The translations under genes were made by a program, and so were the position numbers. Positions 25,685-53,394 of a stretch of 64,000 bases of DNA are shown here, in pieces. The notes beneath the pieces were generated by a model that saw only the letters and a list, made by a program, of their open reading frames with translations, was not told the origin of the DNA and made no database searches. How positions within the stretch are numbered: position 1 is the stretch's first letter; the number at the start of each line of letters is the position of its first letter. Where the stretch lies: assembly GCA_900299295.1 (NCBI GenBank), contig OMJH01000060.1, positions 1 to 64,000 of the forward strand, read 5' to 3'. The stretch comes from Bacteroidota bacterium. GTDB taxonomy: Bacteria; Bacteroidota; Bacteroidia; B-17B0; Aurantibacillaceae.

Positions 25685-25921
25685 CTAACTTTGAATTTTT
25701 TGATCGGGCACGCGTGACGGTATGTCGCAACCTGCCGGAGAGCAACATCCCAAACCGGCAAGGCTTTGTACCATAAAAAATAATCCTAGAGGTAAAAATA
25801 CCCATTCGCTCATTACTATAGATTGAATAATAAGCAAAATACTGAACACAAAACGTAAAATGCGCATAAATGACCATGGTGTTCGAATACGCGCAATGAA
25901 ATTCTCAATTTGTTTTTTCAT
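25685..25921 (-). CDS. DUF2892 small membrane protein (YgaP-like membrane part)
   Basis: Protein of 78 residues with two predicted helices (FMRILRFVFSILLIIQSIVM and FLPLGLFFMVQSLAGLGCC) and a short Cys-rich tail (GCCSPAGC). DUF2892 is the membrane domain of YgaP, where it is fused behind a cytoplasmic rhodanese domain. Here the rhodanese is a separate gene that overlaps this one by four bases, so the two probably act as a split YgaP. The likely role is moving or handling persulfide or thiocyanate at the inner membrane; that is inferred from the family. Confidence 0.82.
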   Translation of the reverse strand: MKKQIENFIARIRTPWSFMRILRFVFSILLIIQSIVMSEWVFLPLGLFFMVQSLAGLGCCSPAGCDIPSRVPDQKIQS

Positions 25922-26238
25922 GATTTTTTAAGTGAGTTAGCATTTTGCCAGGCTCCTCCGTTATGTACATTGATATACCCGGCTGAACGTAAAATGCCCT
26001 TTGCCGAAGCGCTTCGTATTCCGGAGGCGCAACATGTGATAATTGGCTGGCTTTTATCTTTAAGTTTTGAAAGGTTGGAAGATAATTGGTCCAACGGGAT
26101 GTTAACCGAGCCTTTGACATGGCCTGAAGAATATTCGGCGCGTGAACGCACATCAAGGATTGTAGCTCCGGCTTTTACTATTTCTGAAAGGTCAACTTTG
26201 GGACCTAATCCAAATAATTGTTTTAAAAATTCAATCAT
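25918..26238 (-). CDS. Rhodanese-like sulfurtransferase
   Basis: Single-domain rhodanese of 106 residues that carries sulfane sulfur as a cysteine persulfide. It has the ILDVRSRAEYSSGHVKGSVNIP signature in its N-terminal half and the active loop Cys70-Ala-Ser-Gly-Ile-Arg, with a second Cys directly before the nucleophile, then the HNGGAW terminal motif. It overlaps the DUF2892 gene by four bases and follows the broken paralogue by four bases. Start ATG 26238. Confidence 0.93.
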   Translation of the reverse strand: MIEFLKQLFGLGPKVDLSEIVKAGATILDVRSRAEYSSGHVKGSVNIPLDQLSSNLSKLKDKSQPIITCCASGIRSASAKGILRSAGYINVHNGGAWQNANSLKKS

Positions 26239-26242
26239 GTTA

Positions 26243-26507
26243 TTATTTTTCTAGTAAAGAATTTACGTTTAGCCATGAGCCGGCATTTTCACATGCAATG
26301 CCCAATGATGAAAGATAACCTTCGGCCCCCGGAGGCGCAACATAGTACTATGTTTTTCATTTGCCTTATTTCATCTAATCTGTGGGGAAGTTCTTGCAGC
26401 GGAATATTAATGCTTCCTGCAACATGCCCGCCCATAAATTCTCCCGGCGTACGGACGTCCACAATTTTTGCGGTTCCGCTTTTAATCCATTCAATGCTTT
26501 TAATCAT
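26243..26507 (-). pseudogene. Rhodanese paralogue broken by a frameshift at the active-site loop
   Basis: The intact first part (from ATG 26507) has the IVDVRTPGEFMGGHVAGSIN signature and the CCASGGR loop, then runs into a stop at 26289 after 72 codons. In the +1 frame from about 26325 the rest of a rhodanese is readable: EGYLSSLGIACENAGSWLNV and a short tail, ending at TAA 26243-26245. That natural end leaves four bases to the next gene, matching operon spacing. Compared with the intact neighbour about four to five residues are also missing after the loop, so a small deletion of a length not divisible by three is likely. A sequencing error at the GGGGG run or a +1 recoding event are alternatives. 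Confidence 0.8.
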
Positions 26508-26589
26508 CGTTTTTATTTTTTACAAAGTAGCGAAGAATTCCAACCATCGTGTGCAACAAATGTTGGATATCCTGTGTTTTTAACAGGAT

Positions 26590-27195
26590 TTAATGCAATA
26601 ATTCAATATTGTTACGGCCAAGTTTTACCAAATTTTTCTGTTCCATTGTTCGAAGCAAGCGACTGATCGCTTCACGATGTGAATGAAGTTCATCCGCGAT
26701 TTCCTGATGGGTGATTTCTAGTATACGGGTGTTGAGCGCAAGTGAACGCACTTCGAGATAGTGCTGAAGTTGTTTATCCATGTTATTGAACGCTATCAAA
26801 TCGATAACCTGAAGCAGTTCGGCAAAACGTTGCGCGTAATTCATTGCAACGAATGATTTCCATTCTTCCAGATTCATCCATTCGCTTGAAAGTTCCACCG
26901 GAATCTGAATCACTTCTGAATCCGTTTCGGCGATGGCTTTGATCATGCTGTTTTGTCCGGCCTGGCAACATGTTAGCGACATCGCACAGGTTTGTCCGCG
27001 AGCAAGATGATACAAAAAAACCTCCCGGCCTTGTTCATCTTCCCTAAGTACACGGATAGAACCTTTAATTACCAGAGGCACATAACGAATTTGCTCTCCA
27101 GGCAAAATCATTACATCTCCCGCTTTTATTGTGCGATATCGACCAAATTTTTTTATCGCTTCATTTAATTTTGTTCCGGCAAAAAAATCATTCAT
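26590..27195 (-). CDS. Crp/Fnr family transcriptional regulator, Cys-rich
   Basis: Regulator of 201 residues with an N-terminal cyclic-nucleotide-type beta-barrel (AGDVMILPGEQIRYVPLVIKG) and a C-terminal winged helix (THQEIADELHSHREAISRLLRTMEQ). It has Cys70, Cys76 and Cys77 in the effector domain (QTCAMSLTCC) but no Fnr-type Cys cluster at the N-terminus. Start ATG 27195 is chosen; a longer frame begins at 27231 before the promoter's expected transcript start. It heads the operon of rhodaneses and thioredoxin, so the cysteines might sense persulfide or oxidants; that is inference. Confidence 0.9.
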   Translation of the reverse strand: MNDFFAGTKLNEAIKKFGRYRTIKAGDVMILPGEQIRYVPLVIKGSIRVLREDEQGREVFLYHLARGQTCAMSLTCCQAGQNSMIKAIAETDSEVIQIPVELSSEWMNLEEWKSFVAMNYAQRFAELLQVIDLIAFNNMDKQLQHYLEVRSLALNTRILEITHQEIADELHSHREAISRLLRTMEQKNLVKLGRNNIELLH

Positions 27196-27228
27196 AAAAA
27201 AACCTGCTGGTGGATGAATATGATTGTG

Positions 27229-27236
27229 CAAAGATA
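27229..27236 (-). promoter_or_regulatory. -7 promoter element of the crp-rhodanese-trxA operon
   Basis: Minus-strand TATCTTTG, a perfect TAnnTTTG match, ending 33 bases before ATG 27195. This is the only strong element before the operon. Confidence 0.6.
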
Positions 27237-28262: not shown

Positions 28263-28270
28263 TAATTTTG
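28263..28270 (+). promoter_or_regulatory. -7 promoter element of mscS
   Basis: TAATTTTG, a perfect TAnnTTTG match, ending nine bases before ATG 28280. It overlaps the alternative TTG start at 28268, which argues against that start. Confidence 0.55.
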
Positions 28271-28279
28271 CGATTCGTT

Positions 28280-29095
28280 ATGTTTGAAAAAAAAATTAAT
28301 GATCTAGGCGAAAAATTGCTCCAAACCGGAATTAATTACCTTCCGAAATTTTTTGCAGGGATTCTCGTTTTGATTGTCGGCTGGTGGCTGATTAACCGAA
28401 TTGTAGGTTTGGTTGTGTTAGTCATGCGCAAGAAAAACCTGGACCCTTCCCTGAATTCATTTTTGCACTCTTGTATTTCAATTGGTTTACGGATTTTGCT
28501 CCTGGTATCTGTTGCCGGAATGATTGGCTTCCATACCACTTCGCTGGTTGCTATCATGGGGGCTATCGGACTCGCCATCGGACTGGCCTTGCAAGGATCT
28601 TTGAGTAATTTTGCCGGAGGGGCGCTTATTCTTACGTTCAAACCCTTCAAAGTGGGCGATATTATTGAGTCCGGAAATTATACAGGAGAAGTAAAAGAAA
28701 TACAGATTTTTAATACTGTATTGCTAACCTTCGAAAATAAGACCGTTTTTATCCCAAACGGAGTGCTTTCTAATGGAACTATTGTAAATTATTCAGTGAG
28801 CGGATCTATCAGAGGTGAGGTGAATTTTTCGCTGGCTTCATCAACTGAGGTAGAAAAAGTAAAAGGGATACTTGAACAAATTTTAAACACTGACCCACGG
28901 ATTCATCAAAACCCGTCCCATCAAATTTTCGTTACCGGTTTCGGAAACCACACTTTACGAATAACCCTTCGGTTTTACGCTGAGCCTTCAGATCGTTCAA
29001 TCATCGAATCAGACATCTGGGAACGCGCAAAAACTGCCTTTTCGGTAAATGGAATTCAGGAATCGGAAAACGTTACAGTTTTAAGAAGGAAATAA
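28280..29095 (+). CDS. mscS: Small-conductance mechanosensitive channel, MscS family
   Basis: Inner-membrane channel that opens under osmotic down-shock. The protein has 271 residues and three transmembrane helices. The pore-lining third helix is recognisable as AIMGAIGLAIGLALQGSLSNFAGG with the alternating Gly/Ala pattern, followed by the beta domain (FKVGDIIESGNYTGEVKEI, FIPNGVLSNGTIVNYS). The length equals that of the short E. coli type. ATG 28280 is used because the promoter element overlaps the upstream TTG. It is monocistronic, divergent from folB. Confidence 0.94.
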   Translation: MFEKKINDLGEKLLQTGINYLPKFFAGILVLIVGWWLINRIVGLVVLVMRKKNLDPSLNSFLHSCISIGLRILLLVSVAGMIGFHTTSLVAIMGAIGLAIGLALQGSLSNFAGGALILTFKPFKVGDIIESGNYTGEVKEIQIFNTVLLTFENKTVFIPNGVLSNGTIVNYSVSGSIRGEVNFSLASSTEVEKVKGILEQILNTDPRIHQNPSHQIFVTGFGNHTLRITLRFYAEPSDRSIIESDIWERAKTAFSVNGIQESENVTVLRRK

Positions 29096-29194: not shown

Positions 29195-30349
29195 ATGAAG
29201 AAAAAGATTGTAATTGTAGAAGATGATTTTATAATTCAGGAGTTGCATAAGCATTATGTCGAAAATCTAGGGCATGAGGTAGCGGGAACATTTGCTACCG
29301 GTGAAGAGGCTATTGATTTTTTTAAAACGCATACTGCAGATCTGATTTTAATGGACATCCGGCTTGAAGACAGTATCGACGGGATTGAAACGATGAAAAA
29401 AATTCAGGCTATTCAACCAACTCCTGTTATTTATATTTCCGGCAATACTGAACCGTCAAACTTTAACCGTGCGATTAACACCAATATGAAGGGGTTTTTA
29501 TCCAAACCATTGGCCCCGTCAGAATTGGAGAATATTATTGATTCAATTAACGATTTGACCGATTCGATTTTATACGCTGAGCGAATTCAAAAAGCCATTT
29601 TTCCTCAACGTGAAGAGATACATAACGCTTTTAACAACAGTATTTACATTAATCGTCCACGCGACATTATTAGCGGTGATTTTAGTTTTCTTGTTCCTAA
29701 AAAATCGAAAGGGGAATGGATTGGAGGTATTGGCGACTGCACAGGCCATGGAATACCAGCTGCATTGCTTTCTGTATTATGCCATGAAATTTTAAGAAGC
29801 AATTCTAAAAAATTCAGCCATCTTCCTAAAATAATTACCAGATTGAATAATAGTATCATCCGCAATTTATCCCGACTTGATAAAGCAAATCGCGTTTCCG
29901 ATGGGCTTGATATGATAATGTTCAAAGTTATTCCTACTGAATCGCGGATTGAAATTGCCGGAATACGACGGCCTTTTATTCATTATAAAGCCAAAACTCA
30001 AACCCACGAATATCATGGTCTGAAAGGACAACCCATCGGCACCCCATTTACGTCCGATGAGGACATACCAAGCATGAGTATAAATTACGAAGAGAACGAT
30101 TATTTTTATTTTTTCACAGACGGAATCACTGACCAGTTTGGAGGCCCACGAGCCAGGAAATTGATGAAAGGTCGATTAATTGGTTTTTTGGATTCAATCG
30201 CTTCAATGACGCCTTTAACACGTGAAATAGAGCTGGAAATACATTTACGTAAATGGCAAGGCAGCTTAAATCAAACTGACGACATGTTGTTTTTAGGAAT
30301 TTGTCCTGCAAACATCAAAAATTCTTTGAAACACAAAATAAACCCCTAA
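29195..30349 (+). CDS. Response regulator with PP2C/SpoIIE (RsbU-type) phosphatase output
   Basis: First gene of the H-NOX cluster, 384 residues. The receiver domain (1-120) has Glu9-Asp10-Asp11 and phosphoacceptor Asp54 (ILMDIRLED), plus the SKP lysine near residue 107. A short helix with ILYAERIQKAIFP links it to a PP2C-type Ser/Thr phosphatase domain with RDIISGDF and GDCTGHGIPAAL metal motifs. Such enzymes dephosphorylate anti-sigma-factor antagonists or other phosphoproteins; none is encoded nearby. Phosphorylation by the cluster's kinase is inferred. It ends 13 bases before the H-NOX gene. Confidence 0.92.
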   Translation: MKKKIVIVEDDFIIQELHKHYVENLGHEVAGTFATGEEAIDFFKTHTADLILMDIRLEDSIDGIETMKKIQAIQPTPVIYISGNTEPSNFNRAINTNMKGFLSKPLAPSELENIIDSINDLTDSILYAERIQKAIFPQREEIHNAFNNSIYINRPRDIISGDFSFLVPKKSKGEWIGGIGDCTGHGIPAALLSVLCHEILRSNSKKFSHLPKIITRLNNSIIRNLSRLDKANRVSDGLDMIMFKVIPTESRIEIAGIRRPFIHYKAKTQTHEYHGLKGQPIGTPFTSDEDIPSMSINYEENDYFYFFTDGITDQFGGPRARKLMKGRLIGFLDSIASMTPLTREIELEIHLRKWQGSLNQTDDMLFLGICPANIKNSLKHKINP

Positions 30350-30362
30350 AACCTATAAATTT

Positions 30363-30905
30363 ATGTACGGACTAGTAAACAAAGCCATTCAAGATTTGGT
30401 AACTGAAAAATTTGGAGAAGAGAAATGGGTTGAAATAAAAAAATTATCCGGTTTTCAGGATGATTTTTTTGTTGGACTACAATCCTACCCAGATGATTTA
30501 ACCTACACTCTCGTGAAAAATGCTTCCAAAGTTTTGGGTGCCGATGCATCCGTGGTATTGGAATTGTTCGGAGAATACTGGATATTGTATACAGCGGAAG
30601 AAGGCTACGGAGACATGCTTGAACTCGCAGGGGATAGTTTTGTTGATTTTCTTAATAATCTCGATATGCTTCATAATCGTGTTGCCGGAATTATGCCGGG
30701 ATTAATACCTCCGCAGTTTAGCACCCGAAATGAAAAAACGAATTCAATTGAACTCGAATATCGCTCTATGCGCGAAGGACTATCTCCAATGGTAGTCGGG
30801 CTGATTCGCGGCTTAGGAAAGCGTTTTCAGCTTACCTGCAAAATTGAACATATTCAGCAAAAAAATGATGTTAATGACTGCCATGTATTTAAAATAGATT
30901 GGTAA
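30363..30905 (+). CDS. H-NOX haem-binding nitric oxide sensor
   Basis: Stand-alone H-NOX (HNOB) domain of 180 residues, a cytoplasmic haem protein related to the sensor domain of soluble guanylate cyclase. The proximal haem ligand is His104 (MLHNRV), and the propionate-binding Tyr133-x-Ser135-x-Arg137 motif (YRSMR) is intact. At the place where oxygen-binding H-NOX have a distal Tyr, five residues after that Arg, there is Pro142, so it is expected to bind NO and not O2. It lies 13 bases after the phosphatase and six before the kinase, which lacks its own H-NOX domain, so regulation in trans is likely. Confidence 0.95.
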   Translation: MYGLVNKAIQDLVTEKFGEEKWVEIKKLSGFQDDFFVGLQSYPDDLTYTLVKNASKVLGADASVVLELFGEYWILYTAEEGYGDMLELAGDSFVDFLNNLDMLHNRVAGIMPGLIPPQFSTRNEKTNSIELEYRSMREGLSPMVVGLIRGLGKRFQLTCKIEHIQQKNDVNDCHVFKIDW

Positions 30906-30911
30906 AACGCA

Positions 30912-33809
30912 ATGATTAAGCCGGGAATTCCAGATAATGAGACAGAACGTCTCGCTGCACTTTTGGAATATCAACTTAATGGTGAGTTTGAGGAGGCGGA
31001 GTATAAGGATATTGTAATTGCAGCTTCCGATGTATGTAATGTACCAACTGCCTTCATATCTATCATTGAAGAGAACAAACAGCGCATCATTGCAAGTACC
31101 GGATTAAACATAAATGAAACTACCCGGGATGTTTCATTTTGTGGACATACAATCAATAAACCCGCTGAGCTTACCATTATTTCTGATGCTCGGAAGGATC
31201 CACGTTTTTCTGATAATCCATTAGTTACAGGCGAACCTAAGGTTGTTTTTTATGCCGGTGTTCCTTTGGTAGATGACAACGGCTTCGCTCTCGGTACGCT
31301 GTGTATAATGGATAACAGTCCTAGAACCTTAACCGATGGTCAACTCAAAATTTTAAAAATTCTTTCCAGAAAAATTTTAGCAATTCTATCACTAAAAAGA
31401 ACAAACAGGGTCATGTTTCAGGAGCGGAAGAATTTTTTCGAGCTGTTGAATAACACTACACCGTTTTTTTTATTGATCAATACCGAAGGAAAAATTTTAG
31501 AGTCAGGTAAAAACTATAAAAAAGCTGTTCCAGAACTTGAAAATGGGACTACATTTGATTTGTTTTTTAATTGGGAAGGCAATCTTACTTTCAGGGAAAT
31601 TGTCAGTTCGGGACATAGTAAACTTTATTTTTTTAGTTGCAAAAATCAAAAACAGCGATATAAGTGTTCAATACGCCACTATAACCAAAACGCCTATTTA
31701 TTATATGCCATAGCTGTGGTAAATGCTGATTTGTCGATTGGTAATTATAAAATTAATCTGAATGATTTTCCAAAGCAGGATTATATCGCAGAGTTTTTGT
31801 TTTTGCAGCAGGGAGCAAATCGGGGCCTTAAAGAATCTGAGCGGTTGAATAATTCATTGAGAACCCGTAATAATGAGTTAGAACTGGCAAAAAATGCTTT
31901 AGTGAATGCCAACGCCGTGCTGGAACAGCGAATAGAAGAAAGGACCAAGCAGATAAAAAACCTTGCATTATTTCCGGAACAAAATCCAAATCCTGTATTA
32001 GAAATAGATATTTCACAGGAAAAAATTAATTATATGAATCCGGCTGCCAAAAAACAGATTTTTAGAAACGGCGATTTGGACTATGAACAATTATACAACT
32101 ATTTAAAACTTGAAAGCAGGCAAAAAACCGATTACGAATCAGGTAAGCTAGAAATTTCCAACCATGATAAAATTTACGAAAGAAGTTTGTTTTATACCAA
32201 CACGGACACAATTCGTATTTACCTGCACGATATTACGCTTATTCGAAATAACGAACGCAAAGAACGTTTACGTCAGGAAAAATCGTTATTGACACAAAAA
32301 ACACTTTTGAATTTGCGGAATATAAACCGCGAAATAGCACTTGCTGAAAAATTTAAAATTATTCTTCGTGAAACTTCCGGTATTATGGGCTGCAGCCGAT
32401 GCAGTGTCTGGCTATATAATTCAGAACAAGGAAGCATCGCTTCCGAATTCATTTACAGTGCGGAAAACGATTCGTTTATAGCTGGATTAACGCTTTTTAA
32501 AAAAGATTTTCCGGCGTACTTTAAAGCGCTCGCTTCAAAAACGGTGATTGATGCAGAGGACGCAGAAATGCATCCTGCAACCTGTGAATTTAAAGATGTT
32601 TATCTCCGGCCACTGAACATCGTGTCAATGCTTTATGTTCCGCTGATTAAGTCAAATGAATTAATCGGTGTGCTTTGTTGCGAATATACAGGCACTAGAC
32701 GAGAATTTTCGGAAGAGGATATTAATTTTTCACGCTCAGTTTCCGATGTTATCATTCTGGCAATTGAATCAGATCAATTGATGATTTCGAATTCACGGCT
32801 TACGGAATTAAATGCTAACCTAAAAGATGCCTATGATCAGTTGGTGGCACTGCAATCAGATGTTATAAAACAAGAAAAGTTGGCCACGCTTGGAACCCTC
32901 ATCGCAGGCATCGCACACGAAATAAATACCCCGCTAGGAGCAATTAAGGCGTCCAACGATAATTTAAATGATTCATTTTTAAACTTATTTAGTGAACAAG
33001 TAACAAAACTGGGCTTTGAAGATATGCATGCAGGTGTTAGGTTGTTTTTACTTTCCAACAAAAAAAGCTTCCCGAAAACTACGCGCGAAGAAAGAAATAG
33101 TATTCGGAAATTGGAAGCGGAACTTATTGAAAGAAAAATTCGAATTGAGAATTCGAATTTTTTTGCTCAAAAAATAGTGCAACTGAATCACGATTCCTTG
33201 TCAGTTGAATTAATTGATTTTATTAAGCATCCTAATGCAATTGAAATTTTTTCTTTTGCCTCAAATTTAAGTAAAGTTGTAAAATCAATCCACACAATTG
33301 GTCTGGCTGCTGACAAAGCAACCCGGGTTGTGCGTGCAATGAATAATTTTTCACACGGAAATATTGATGGTGAAATCACTCTGTTTAATCTTAAAGAAAG
33401 CATTGACAATGTAATTATAGTTTTATGGAATAGGATTAAACAGGGTGTTTCAATTAATCTGGATCTGCAGGATGATTTTTTAGTAAAAGGAAATCAGGAA
33501 GAGTTGTCCCAGGTATGGACAAACATAATAAATAACGCCATACAAGCTTCTAACGCGAAATGTACAATTAATATCAAACATGTGAGCACTGATAGGATTG
33601 ATACACTTATCTTTGCCAACGACGGCCCAATGATTCCCGAAGATGTTTTACCCAAAATTTTCGATCCTTTTTTCTCCACAAAAAAACGTGGAGAAGGTAC
33701 CGGTCTAGGTTTGAATATTGTTAAGAAAATAATTGAGAAACATAAGGGAGAGATTTTTTGCGAAAGTAATGCTCTCGAAACTCGTTTTATAATTAACTTA
33801 CCAAAATAA
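30912..33809 (+). CDS. Multi-domain sensor histidine kinase (H-NOX-associated)
   Basis: Soluble kinase of 965 residues, no transmembrane helix. Order: an N-terminal GAF domain (about 25-165, DVSFCGHTI, FYAGVPLVDDNG, GTLCIMD); a less clear PAS-like stretch; a coiled coil (about 300-350); another PAS-like segment (FPEQNPNPVLEID); a second GAF (about 480-625, MLYVPLIKSNELIGVLCCEY); HisKA with the phosphoacceptor His669 (GIAHEINTP); then about 190 residues before the ATPase N-box (WTNIINNAIQAS), instead of the usual 110 or so; and ATP-lid motifs (DPFFSTKKRGEGTGLGL). It lies six bases after the H-NOX gene and three before the first receiver. NO-loaded H-NOX probably controls it. Confidence 0.92.
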   Translation: MIKPGIPDNETERLAALLEYQLNGEFEEAEYKDIVIAASDVCNVPTAFISIIEENKQRIIASTGLNINETTRDVSFCGHTINKPAELTIISDARKDPRFSDNPLVTGEPKVVFYAGVPLVDDNGFALGTLCIMDNSPRTLTDGQLKILKILSRKILAILSLKRTNRVMFQERKNFFELLNNTTPFFLLINTEGKILESGKNYKKAVPELENGTTFDLFFNWEGNLTFREIVSSGHSKLYFFSCKNQKQRYKCSIRHYNQNAYLLYAIAVVNADLSIGNYKINLNDFPKQDYIAEFLFLQQGANRGLKESERLNNSLRTRNNELELAKNALVNANAVLEQRIEERTKQIKNLALFPEQNPNPVLEIDISQEKINYMNPAAKKQIFRNGDLDYEQLYNYLKLESRQKTDYESGKLEISNHDKIYERSLFYTNTDTIRIYLHDITLIRNNERKERLRQEKSLLTQKTLLNLRNINREIALAEKFKIILRETSGIMGCSRCSVWLYNSEQGSIASEFIYSAENDSFIAGLTLFKKDFPAYFKALASKTVIDAEDAEMHPATCEFKDVYLRPLNIVSMLYVPLIKSNELIGVLCCEYTGTRREFSEEDINFSRSVSDVIILAIESDQLMISNSRLTELNANLKDAYDQLVALQSDVIKQEKLATLGTLIAGIAHEINTPLGAIKASNDNLNDSFLNLFSEQVTKLGFEDMHAGVRLFLLSNKKSFPKTTREERNSIRKLEAELIERKIRIENSNFFAQKIVQLNHDSLSVELIDFIKHPNAIEIFSFASNLSKVVKSIHTIGLAADKATRVVRAMNNFSHGNIDGEITLFNLKESIDNVIIVLWNRIKQGVSINLDLQDDFLVKGNQEELSQVWTNIINNAIQASNAKCTINIKHVSTDRIDTLIFANDGPMIPEDVLPKIFDPFFSTKKRGEGTGLGLNIVKKIIEKHKGEIFCESNALETRFIINLPK

Positions 33810-33812
33810 AAC

Positions 33813-34211
33813 ATGAAAAAAATAGCTATTCTATCCGTTGACGATGAAAAAATCATTCTTGATTCTATTCGGATACAGATGGAAAAAAATTTTCACAACA
33901 AATTTATTTTTGAATTTGCTGAAAGCGCCGATGAAGCACTGGAACTTGTAGATTATTTAATTGATTCAAAGGTGGATATTCTTTTAATCATATCCGATTA
34001 CCAGATGCCGGGCATGAAAGGCGATGAGTTTGCTGGTACTCTTAAAAAGAAATTACCGGAAGTGAACATTGTAATGCTCACCGGACAGATGCCTGGAGAA
34101 ATTTCAACCGTTTTACTGGAGAATAAAATAATTCTCAATGTGATTCAAAAACCATGGAACGAGAATGACCTTATTAATTTGATAAATAAGGTATCCGAGG
34201 AAATCGAGTGA
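33813..34211 (+). CDS. Single-domain response regulator (receiver 1)
   Basis: CheY-like receiver of 132 residues without output domain. Acidic pair Asp10-Asp11, phosphoacceptor Asp62 (IISDYQMPG), switch Thr in MLTGQ and Lys in IQKPW are all present. It begins three bases after the kinase stop and its own stop overlaps the next start (GTGA), so all three are almost surely translated together. It probably shuttles phosphate or competes for the kinase; the final output is unknown. The sequence is only moderately like that of the second receiver. Confidence 0.92.
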   Translation: MKKIAILSVDDEKIILDSIRIQMEKNFHNKFIFEFAESADEALELVDYLIDSKVDILLIISDYQMPGMKGDEFAGTLKKKLPEVNIVMLTGQMPGEISTVLLENKIILNVIQKPWNENDLINLINKVSEEIE

Positions 34212-34591
34212 AAAGAGCAATTTTATTAATAGATGATGAATTCATTATTCTGGAGGCGCTTCGAATTCAGGTAAGCCGTGTTATCCCGGATGACATTCAT
34301 CTTGAAGTAGCAACCTCTGGAGAAGAGGCCAAAGAACTCATCACGGAGTTTAAGAAATCAAATTATAATTTGTTATTAATCATCACAGACTACAACCTGG
34401 ACGATTTGAAGGGGACGGAAATTTTACAGTTTGCTTTGGAACATTTTCCAGCTACAAAAAAGGCAATTCTTACAGGTCAGGCGGACGATCATGCCATTTC
34501 CGAATTCAAGAATACGCTGGGATTAGAAGCTCGTTTTCCAAAGCCCTGGGACTCTAATGAGATCAAAGCATTTATTCAGTCATCCATCTGA
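34208..34591 (+). CDS. Single-domain response regulator (receiver 2)
   Basis: Receiver of 127 residues, GTG start within the stop of receiver 1. Acidic pair Asp9-Asp10, phosphoacceptor Asp61 (IITDYNLDD), switch Thr in ILTGQ and Lys in RFPKPW are present. No effector domain. It ends the H-NOX cluster. Like receiver 1 it has the KPW variant after the conserved Lys, and the pair may have arisen by an old duplication. Its output partner is not visible here. Confidence 0.92.
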   Translation: MKRAILLIDDEFIILEALRIQVSRVIPDDIHLEVATSGEEAKELITEFKKSNYNLLLIITDYNLDDLKGTEILQFALEHFPATKKAILTGQADDHAISEFKNTLGLEARFPKPWDSNEIKAFIQSSI

Positions 34592-51621: not shown

Positions 51622-53394
51622 ATGCAAACAGCCAGAACCTCAAACATTATTGATAAGCCGCGCCGCGAAGGTGCGGAAGATTTACTCGGAGTTGATAAAT
51701 ATACCGATGCGTTGATTCAATTCATTGAATCCTGTCAAATGCCGACCACGCTCGCCATTCAGGGGGAGTGGGGAAGTGGTAAAACATCTTTACTAAATCA
51801 AATCCGTTACCGCCTTTGTGAATCTTCACTTCATTCGGTTGAAGTAAATAAGGAGAAACCTTTTTATGGCGTTTGGCTCAATACCTGGCAGTATTCATTA
51901 ATGAAAAGCAAGGATGAAGCGCTGATATCCATTATCAAGGGCTTGACGACTGAAATCCTTTCAATTATCAGTCAAAAACACGAATCGAAATCGCAGGCCA
52001 CCATTAATAAAGTTGTCGGATTTGTTTCATTTTTAGGTAAGGCGAGCGCAAAAGCTGCGGCCTCCTCCGTTGGGATTGAATCGGGTGTGGTTGATTCGTT
52101 GCTGGAGAAAGATGCAGGAGAAGCAAATTTGCTTGCATTTAAAAAATCACTGGAGGATGCCATTCGTCAGTGTTTGGAAGAGGATCGCAAATCCGGAAAC
52201 AATAACCGCGGTTTTATTTTTTTTATCGATGACCTTGACCGCATCGATCCGCCGGTAGCCGTTGAAATTCTTGAACTCATTAAAAACATTTTTGAAGTTG
52301 AAAATTGTCTTTTTGTACTTGCAATTGACTATGAAGTTGTAGTAAAAGGACTTGTTCCGAAGTTTGGTCCGTTAACTGAAAAGAATGAGCGTGAGTTCAG
52401 GTCTTTTTTCGACAAGATCATTCAGCTCCCGTTCTCCATGCCGGTTTCCAATTATGATATTACCAAGTTTCTCATTCATTCCCTTCAGGATATCGGATAC
52501 ATCGACAACCGAATTGTACAGGATGATTTTTTAAAGGAAAAGCTGGCGGACCTCACCTTGCTTTCGGTGGGTACAAATCCGCGGTCACTCAAACGCCTCA
52601 TCAATACGCTTTCCTTGCTGAACATCATTGGTAAAATGCAGAGTGATGGACAAAAGGAGATCCACGAATTGCTCATCAATTATGCATTAGTATGCATTCA
52701 GATCGCTTATCCGAAAATTTATGACATGATCATGCAGGAACCTTCGTTTAAGGAGTGGAACGAACAAACGGCAAAGCGGTTACGTTTACCTGAACTGACA
52801 GAAGCACAGATAGCGGTGCTGAATAACGCTGCCGAATTTGATGAAGAGTGGGAGAAAGTGTTGTTCAGGAAATGCCAGCAGGATCCGTACATGGCTTCAC
52901 GGTCATTTCAGGTTTCACAGTTATTGAATTACCTGCTTGAACTGGTTCCGGAACAAATGAATTTTTCGGATGAGATTTCACGCATCATTCGTTTCAGCGC
53001 AGTGACCAGCGTGAATCTGGATGCCATTCCGAAAACGGCGGCGAAAGGAGAAAAAATACGATATGAAGGGTTTTCTGCTTTAGGAGAAATTCTTAAGGCA
53101 GCAAGTTACAGCGATGAATACATTACGCAGTTGAAAAATTGTCACGATAAGATAACGGCTGTGTTCACCGATTTGATCGCTGTAAATTTCACGCCGAATT
53201 TTATCACCTACGCGAGTAAAACTCCGAAAGGCAGAAGCAAAACTTTTTTGTACATACGATTTAAGAAAAACCTTATCGAATTTTTGTTTGCCGGTCAGAC
53301 GGTAAAAGTTAAGCAGGCAGAAGACCTGACAACTGAAATGATAGAAAAATTAAAGCTTTCTTACAATTCAATATCTGAAAAACAAATCAGTTGA
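51622..53394 (+). CDS. KAP family P-loop NTPase
   Basis: Large ATPase of 590 residues. Walker A is GEWGSGKTS (residues 48-56) and Walker B is FIFFIDDLDR (about 197-206), with the family's following helix PVAVEILELIKNIFEV and LFVLAIDYEVV. KAP NTPases typically carry membrane helices inserted between the two motifs; here a mildly hydrophobic Ala/Gly-rich stretch (VVGFVSFLGKASAKAAASSVG) sits there and may bind the membrane weakly. Some KAP proteins are linked to phage exclusion, but the function here is unknown. It has its own promoter behind dnaJ and converges on a small XRE regulator. Confidence 0.88.
   Translation: MQTARTSNIIDKPRREGAEDLLGVDKYTDALIQFIESCQMPTTLAIQGEWGSGKTSLLNQIRYRLCESSLHSVEVNKEKPFYGVWLNTWQYSLMKSKDEALISIIKGLTTEILSIISQKHESKSQATINKVVGFVSFLGKASAKAAASSVGIESGVVDSLLEKDAGEANLLAFKKSLEDAIRQCLEEDRKSGNNNRGFIFFIDDLDRIDPPVAVEILELIKNIFEVENCLFVLAIDYEVVVKGLVPKFGPLTEKNEREFRSFFDKIIQLPFSMPVSNYDITKFLIHSLQDIGYIDNRIVQDDFLKEKLADLTLLSVGTNPRSLKRLINTLSLLNIIGKMQSDGQKEIHELLINYALVCIQIAYPKIYDMIMQEPSFKEWNEQTAKRLRLPELTEAQIAVLNNAAEFDEEWEKVLFRKCQQDPYMASRSFQVSQLLNYLLELVPEQMNFSDEISRIIRFSAVTSVNLDAIPKTAAKGEKIRYEGFSALGEILKAASYSDEYITQLKNCHDKITAVFTDLIAVNFTPNFITYASKTPKGRSKTFLYIRFKKNLIEFLFAGQTVKVKQAEDLTTEMIEKLKLSYNSISEKQIS

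Follow-up and report, generated by a model that had tools for sequence, protein, structure and literature searches.

The locus described here raises the question of why a gene for a receiver-containing protein phosphatase is packed together with genes for a stand-alone H-NOX protein, a sensor kinase, and two lone receivers, and which signal and which kinase would act on the phosphatase. As described in PMC8738867 and PMC6335343, bacterial H-NOX proteins act mostly through c-di-GMP enzymes, transcription factors, and phosphotransfer in quorum sensing. The window, which is the whole stretch of 64,000 nucleotides that was analysed, belongs to the genome of a freshwater-type Bacteroidota bacterium, G000, whose 2.8 Mb are spread over 230 contigs at 93.17% completeness and which encodes a single H-NOX.

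Organization of the cluster

In the ORF listing of the window, the five ORFs of the cluster are on the + strand; the successive intergenic distances are 13, 6, and 3 bases, and the last two ORFs overlap by 4 bases. These genes and the main parts of the kinase are listed below.

29195..30349, + strand: REC-SpoIIE (PP2C-type) phosphatase, 384 aa; phospho-acceptor D54; catalytic D162, D181, D309, and D363 (Pfam)
30363..30905, + strand: stand-alone H-NOX, 180 aa; proximal haem ligand H104, Y133-S135-R137 motif, P117 (Pfam HNOB)
30912..33809, + strand: sensor kinase, 965 aa; GAF, HNOBA, PAS-like, GAF, HisKA (with insertion), HATPase_c; predicted phosphorylated His669
31443..31898, + strand: HNOBA domain and signalling helix of the kinase (aa 178-329), presumed H-NOX docking site (profile match and model)
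32916..32918, + strand: codon of the predicted phosphorylated His669, motif GIAHEINTPLGAI, invariant in 11 kinases
33813..34211, + strand: lone receiver RR1, 132 aa; phospho-acceptor D62 (Pfam; RR1 clade in the receiver tree)
34208..34591, + strand: lone receiver RR2, 127 aa; phospho-acceptor D61 (Pfam; same tree half as RR1)

The Pfam search assigned Response_reg (1e-23) and SpoIIE (1.9e-17) to the phosphatase gene, HNOB (PF07700, 6.9e-48) to the H-NOX, two GAF domains, a partial HisKA below the cut-off and HATPase_c to the kinase, and Response_reg to RR1 (1.3e-13) and RR2 (1.1e-9). The catalytic and phospho-acceptor residues were intact throughout the five genes. The ORF listing and Pfam thus bore out the packing, spacing, and domains given in a preliminary description of the locus. 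The same description had termed the set a phosphorelay, but no Hpt domain or hybrid receiver was found by Pfam among the five proteins, and the set is therefore a branched two-component set.

The H-NOX protein and its kinase

Residues H104, P117, Y133, S135, and R137 of the H-NOX were invariant in an alignment of 12 sequences. The closest solved relative was Nostoc Alr2278 (E about 1e-54 to 1e-51), followed by the beta1 subunit of soluble guanylate cyclase (sGC), whereas the Shewanella H-NOX and the H-NOX of methyl-accepting chemotaxis proteins were far behind in similarity. Because of this kinship with Alr2278, we infer that NO is the ligand. Close H-NOX relatives with named records were mostly from metagenome-assembled Bacteroidota, and a plasmid search with the window H-NOX returned only distant relatives with 22-30% identity. 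A sister H-NOX group (L022, L027, L155, L162, L166) had an upstream NtrC-type sigma-54 regulator and hybrid kinases, representing a different output with the same sensor.

For the window kinase, Pfam gave no HNOBA match even at E up to 1, while the domain was above the Pfam cut-off in several of the other H-NOX-adjacent kinases used as profile sources. A profile restricted to HNOBA domains from 11 such kinases placed HNOBA at residues 178-329 of the window kinase (2.4e-17). The structure model of this segment (pLDDT 74.5, pTM 0.52) had sGC chains and the PAS structures 2p08 and 2p04 of a Nostoc punctiforme kinase as its best PDB matches in Foldseek; the HNOBA alignment profile, searched against PDB sequences, gave unrelated weak matches only. 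By the profile and the structure matches, the kinase holds a diverged HNOBA, that is, the PAS and signalling helix of soluble guanylate cyclase. Because of this domain, the H-NOX and the kinase look like a split sGC-type receptor in which the kinase replaces the cyclase, with HNOBA as the presumed docking site for H-NOX. Unlike in sGC, the HNOBA lies between two GAF domains of a kinase, and the predicted output is phosphotransfer instead of cGMP. This split architecture would offer a soluble, dissectable model for H-NOX-HNOBA communication.

The PAS-like stretch of the kinase was read by eye only. In the alignment of 11 kinases, His669 of the H-box did not vary, and the N, G, and F boxes were conserved. 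The two DHp helices were separated in all 11 kinases by a long inserted segment of helical character (in the window kinase at aa about 688-801, window 32973-33314), and the distance between HisKA and HATPase_c points to the same insertion in L141, L146, L147, L149, L150, and L153.

Recurrence of the cluster in relatives

The order REC-SpoIIE, H-NOX, kinase, RR1, RR2 was also present in the loci L023, L024, and L025, and L043 had the same order as far as a partial receiver at the contig end. Identities to L023, L024, and L025 were about 64-78% for REC-SpoIIE, H-NOX, and RR1, 50-51% for the kinase, and 41-45% for RR2. Since the order was conserved in relatives, chance was excluded as its source, and the cluster withstood the neighbour search that the preliminary description had proposed.

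Further relatives carried the phosphatase gene in other positions. SpoIIE was upstream of H-NOX in L143 and L144, REC-SpoIIE was convergent and located after RR2 in L040 and L042, it was downstream in L145, and L147 and L149 had SpoIIE fused directly to the second receiver. A SpoIIE gene was found at the locus in 12 of the 20 Bacteroidota sequences of one H-NOX clade, and all 12 SpoIIE-adjacent H-NOX fell inside this clade (support 98/89 in the H-NOX tree). A REC-SpoIIE orthologue was located on another contig in two further members (G083, G106), L041, L139, and L140 stopped at contig edges, and the flanks that were read at L146, L150, and L153 had no SpoIIE alongside. The SpoIIE-adjacent H-NOX were also considered as a clade of their own, which was rejected (8 changes on the H-NOX tree).

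The class sample was searched for REC-SpoIIE with a cut-off of E <= 1e-70, scoring the best four candidates per genome. Matches were obtained in 7 of 395 genomes, all seven within the 29 with a window-type H-NOX. REC-SpoIIE was present in six of the 87 genomes of the family sample, five of them with the window-type H-NOX and G084 being the exception. The naive Fisher p values for co-occurrence, 5.5e-9 (class) and 9.6e-7 (family), are guides only, since phylogeny was ignored and the class search was restricted to the best four candidates per genome. Across several families, SpoIIE is joined with this H-NOX clade.

It could be supposed that the phosphatase is a chance neighbour without a role in the NO response, as SpoIIE genes are common (17 SpoIIE domains in G000), the two genes lie on separate contigs in G083 and G106, and three loci of the same H-NOX clade have no adjoining SpoIIE. 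This is very improbable given that the adjacency takes upstream, downstream, convergent, and receiver-fused forms across several families, that the class sample showed the co-occurrence given above, that REC-SpoIIE is also found near NosP-like genes, and that L200 has a SpoIIE gene next after a FIST gene.

Two known systems resemble the cluster in part. In Shewanella oneidensis HnoX/HnoK with HnoB, HnoC, and HnoD, an H-NOX kinase branches to three response regulators (PMC6335343). The Shewanella regulators comprise an EAL phosphodiesterase, a degenerate HD-GYP protein, and a transcription factor, whereas the window has two lone receivers and a PP2C phosphatase. Legionella lpg2457-lpg2458 places H-NOX beside a kinase and a CheY-like lone receiver (PMC8738867), with one receiver and no phosphatase described.

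The preliminary description had known of no account of this exact arrangement. The arrangement is not unique, as the order recurs, and three-regulator H-NOX branching was already known (PMC6335343). Judged by titles and abstracts, no description of H-NOX paired with SpoIIE or PP2C was found in the literature searched, which is weak evidence of novelty, as most subscription papers were outside it. The point of interest is the PP2C link to NO-sensing loci.

Receiver classes and candidate phosphate donors of the phosphatase

A tree built from 48 receivers placed those of REC-SpoIIE with those of NosP-like/HisKA_2 operons (98/97), and its other half held RR1, RR2, and the receivers fused to SpoIIE in L147 and L149. 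By sequence, the two lone receivers are assigned to one class, which also takes in the SpoIIE-fused receivers of two relatives, and the receiver of the window REC-SpoIIE is assigned to a different one, associated with HisKA_2 kinases, NosP-like (FIST) ones among them. The best model match of both RR1 and RR2 was the NosR receiver, but the window receivers are without the c-di-GMP output domain of NosR (PMC12570481).

The kinases near REC-SpoIIE differed between loci. In L024, L144, L177, and L179, the gene immediately preceding REC-SpoIIE encoded a HisKA_2 kinase according to Pfam, and a similar kinase sequence was at this position in L025 and L043. A PAS-HisKA_2 kinase was directly upstream of H-NOX in L026, where REC-SpoIIE was on another contig. 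In L145, the H-NOX kinase itself was of the HisKA_2 type and was followed by REC and REC-SpoIIE. In the window, there was no HisKA_2 kinase upstream of REC-SpoIIE on its strand; L023 had no same-strand kinase there, and a NosP-like FIST, kinase, and receiver set was divergent at that position. An orthologue of the L024 HisKA_2 kinase was looked for in G000 and G075, and none was found.

NosP-like FIST operons adjoined REC-SpoIIE in L023, L024, and L177 and were located elsewhere in the genome in G000. There, contig C8 (L198:2622-6125) carried a NosP-like FIST gene, a PAS-HisKA_2-like kinase gene, and a lone receiver gene in one operon, resembling NosP-NosK-NosR (PMC12570481). The FIST protein scored 66.4 bits against NCBIfam NosP, which is far below the equivalog cut-off of 450; the C8 operon is a possible second NO sensor of G000. 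In G135 (L200:3553-5755), a gap of 82 bases separated a FIST gene from a SpoIIE phosphatase gene in which no receiver was recognised; a receiver-like gene came next.

The preliminary description had one kinase feeding three receivers, so that the H-NOX kinase would phosphorylate REC-SpoIIE, RR1, and RR2, and NO would act on the phosphatase and two further targets. The tight packing of the five genes in one apparent operon, with the same order in L023, L024, L025, and L043, is in line with this, as are the missing HisKA_2 partner kinase in the searches of G000 and G075, the fusion to SpoIIE of a receiver after the H-NOX kinase in L147 and L149, and the direct association of the L145 H-NOX kinase with REC and REC-SpoIIE. 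However, the REC-SpoIIE receiver belongs to another lineage than RR1 and RR2, a HisKA_2-like kinase of its own stands before it in six relatives (L024, L025, L043, L144, L177, L179), and G084 retains REC-SpoIIE with a HisKA_2-like kinase and has no H-NOX match. Because the receiver classes differ, the feeding of all three receivers by one kinase is unproven; we consider it doubtful, and a stack of two NO-linked branches may be the likelier arrangement.

In the simplest reading, kinase class matches receiver class, and the SpoIIE branch would be joined to, not simply fed by, the HisKA-type H-NOX kinase. The donor in G000 would be either the H-NOX kinase or a HisKA_2 kinase acting in trans, such as that of the C8 NosP-like operon. 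The absence of an upstream HisKA_2 kinase in the window and L023 and of an orthologue in G000 and G075 favours the H-NOX kinase as the donor in the window.

The phosphatase and its candidate target

Residues D162, D181, D309, D363, and D54 of REC-SpoIIE were invariant in 11 homologues. SiaA was the only solved SpoIIE-domain match, and no RsbU, RsbX, or SpoIIE entry matched. SiaA was also the top NCBIfam match of the window phosphatase, at 89.6 bits, below the equivalog cut-off of 700. In Pseudomonas aeruginosa SiaABCD, the described substrate of SiaA is SiaC that SiaB has phosphorylated at T68 (PMC7647112). Four matches to the SiaC family (PF09345) were present in G000, and the family was present in all nine genomes searched. 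On contig C17 of G000 (L070:748-1685), a SiaC gene was adjoined by a DUF6272 (SiaB-like) gene, a pair that was also found in G075, G079, G080, and G083. The peptide EYFNTSSSK of the C17 SiaC resembles LLYLNTSSIK, the T68 peptide of SiaC in P. aeruginosa (PMC7647112). Unlike SiaA, the window phosphatase has a receiver domain, and its gene does not share an operon with SiaB/SiaC genes.

An anti-sigma pathway had been suggested in the preliminary description as the target. A phosphatase that, like RsbU, activates an anti-sigma partner switch would fit the SpoIIE family membership of the domain, and the genome has one RsbW-like candidate, a short HATPase_c_2 protein of 136 aa. Such a role nevertheless seems unlikely, with SiaA as both the only solved match and the top NCBIfam match and with SiaC-family genes in every genome searched. 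Because the phosphatase is SiaA-like and SiaC and SiaB-like genes are present in the genome, a SiaC hub is the better guess for its target. With its 17 SpoIIE domains, G000 does not tie the SiaC link specifically to the window phosphatase.

Proposed mechanism

Taken as a whole, the locus is best explained as a conserved Bacteroidota NO response cluster of two linked branches, a reading to which we give a probability of about 0.5. Every phosphotransfer in it, and any phenotype, is a prediction. In the first branch, the haem of the stand-alone H-NOX would bind NO, and the H-NOX would dock on the HNOBA region of the kinase, consisting of the sGC-type PAS and signalling helix. Docking would alter autophosphorylation of the kinase at His669, from which phosphate would pass to RR1 and RR2, both acting by protein contact.

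In the second branch, phosphorylation at D54 would switch the REC-SpoIIE PP2C phosphatase. Since its receiver is of the HisKA_2-partnered class, the main donor is probably a HisKA_2 kinase, for which the kinase of the NosP-like operon on another contig is one candidate in G000; the H-NOX kinase would be a possible second donor. The active phosphatase would remove phosphate from a SiaC-type phosphoprotein, to which a SiaB-like kinase would add it.

The recurrence of the cluster hints that NO controls protein dephosphorylation in Bacteroidota. Extending this, we tentatively suggest, at somewhat less than even odds, that NO sensing in this Bacteroidota lineage has, as a standing output, the removal of phosphate from a SiaC-type hub by PP2C, with NO signalling running partly via Ser/Thr phosphorylation, and that this output is reached by several wirings, namely a HisKA H-NOX kinase, a HisKA_2 H-NOX kinase, a SpoIIE-fused kinase receiver, and a NosP-like FIST beside SpoIIE. 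A recurrent link, if real, from an sGC-like H-NOX receptor to a PP2C phosphatase would add Ser/Thr dephosphorylation of proteins to the outputs of NO, and Bacteroidota would gain a concrete, testable NO pathway.

Surroundings of the cluster

A promoter and terminator scan around the cluster gave no excess over shuffles, and we therefore propose no promoter. Neither Rfam nor a tRNA scan gave a match in the whole window. The 5′ neighbour of the cluster was an MscS-type channel gene (28268-29095), and ORFs of 86 and 1027 aa were located on the opposite strand on its 3′ side. Two kb before the cluster, genes for a Crp/Fnr-type regulator and a rhodanese were close together on the - strand (25918-27231). 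At 51622-53391, the window carried a gene for a KAP-family P-loop NTPase with a weak match, below the cut-off, to the anti-phage protein QatA.
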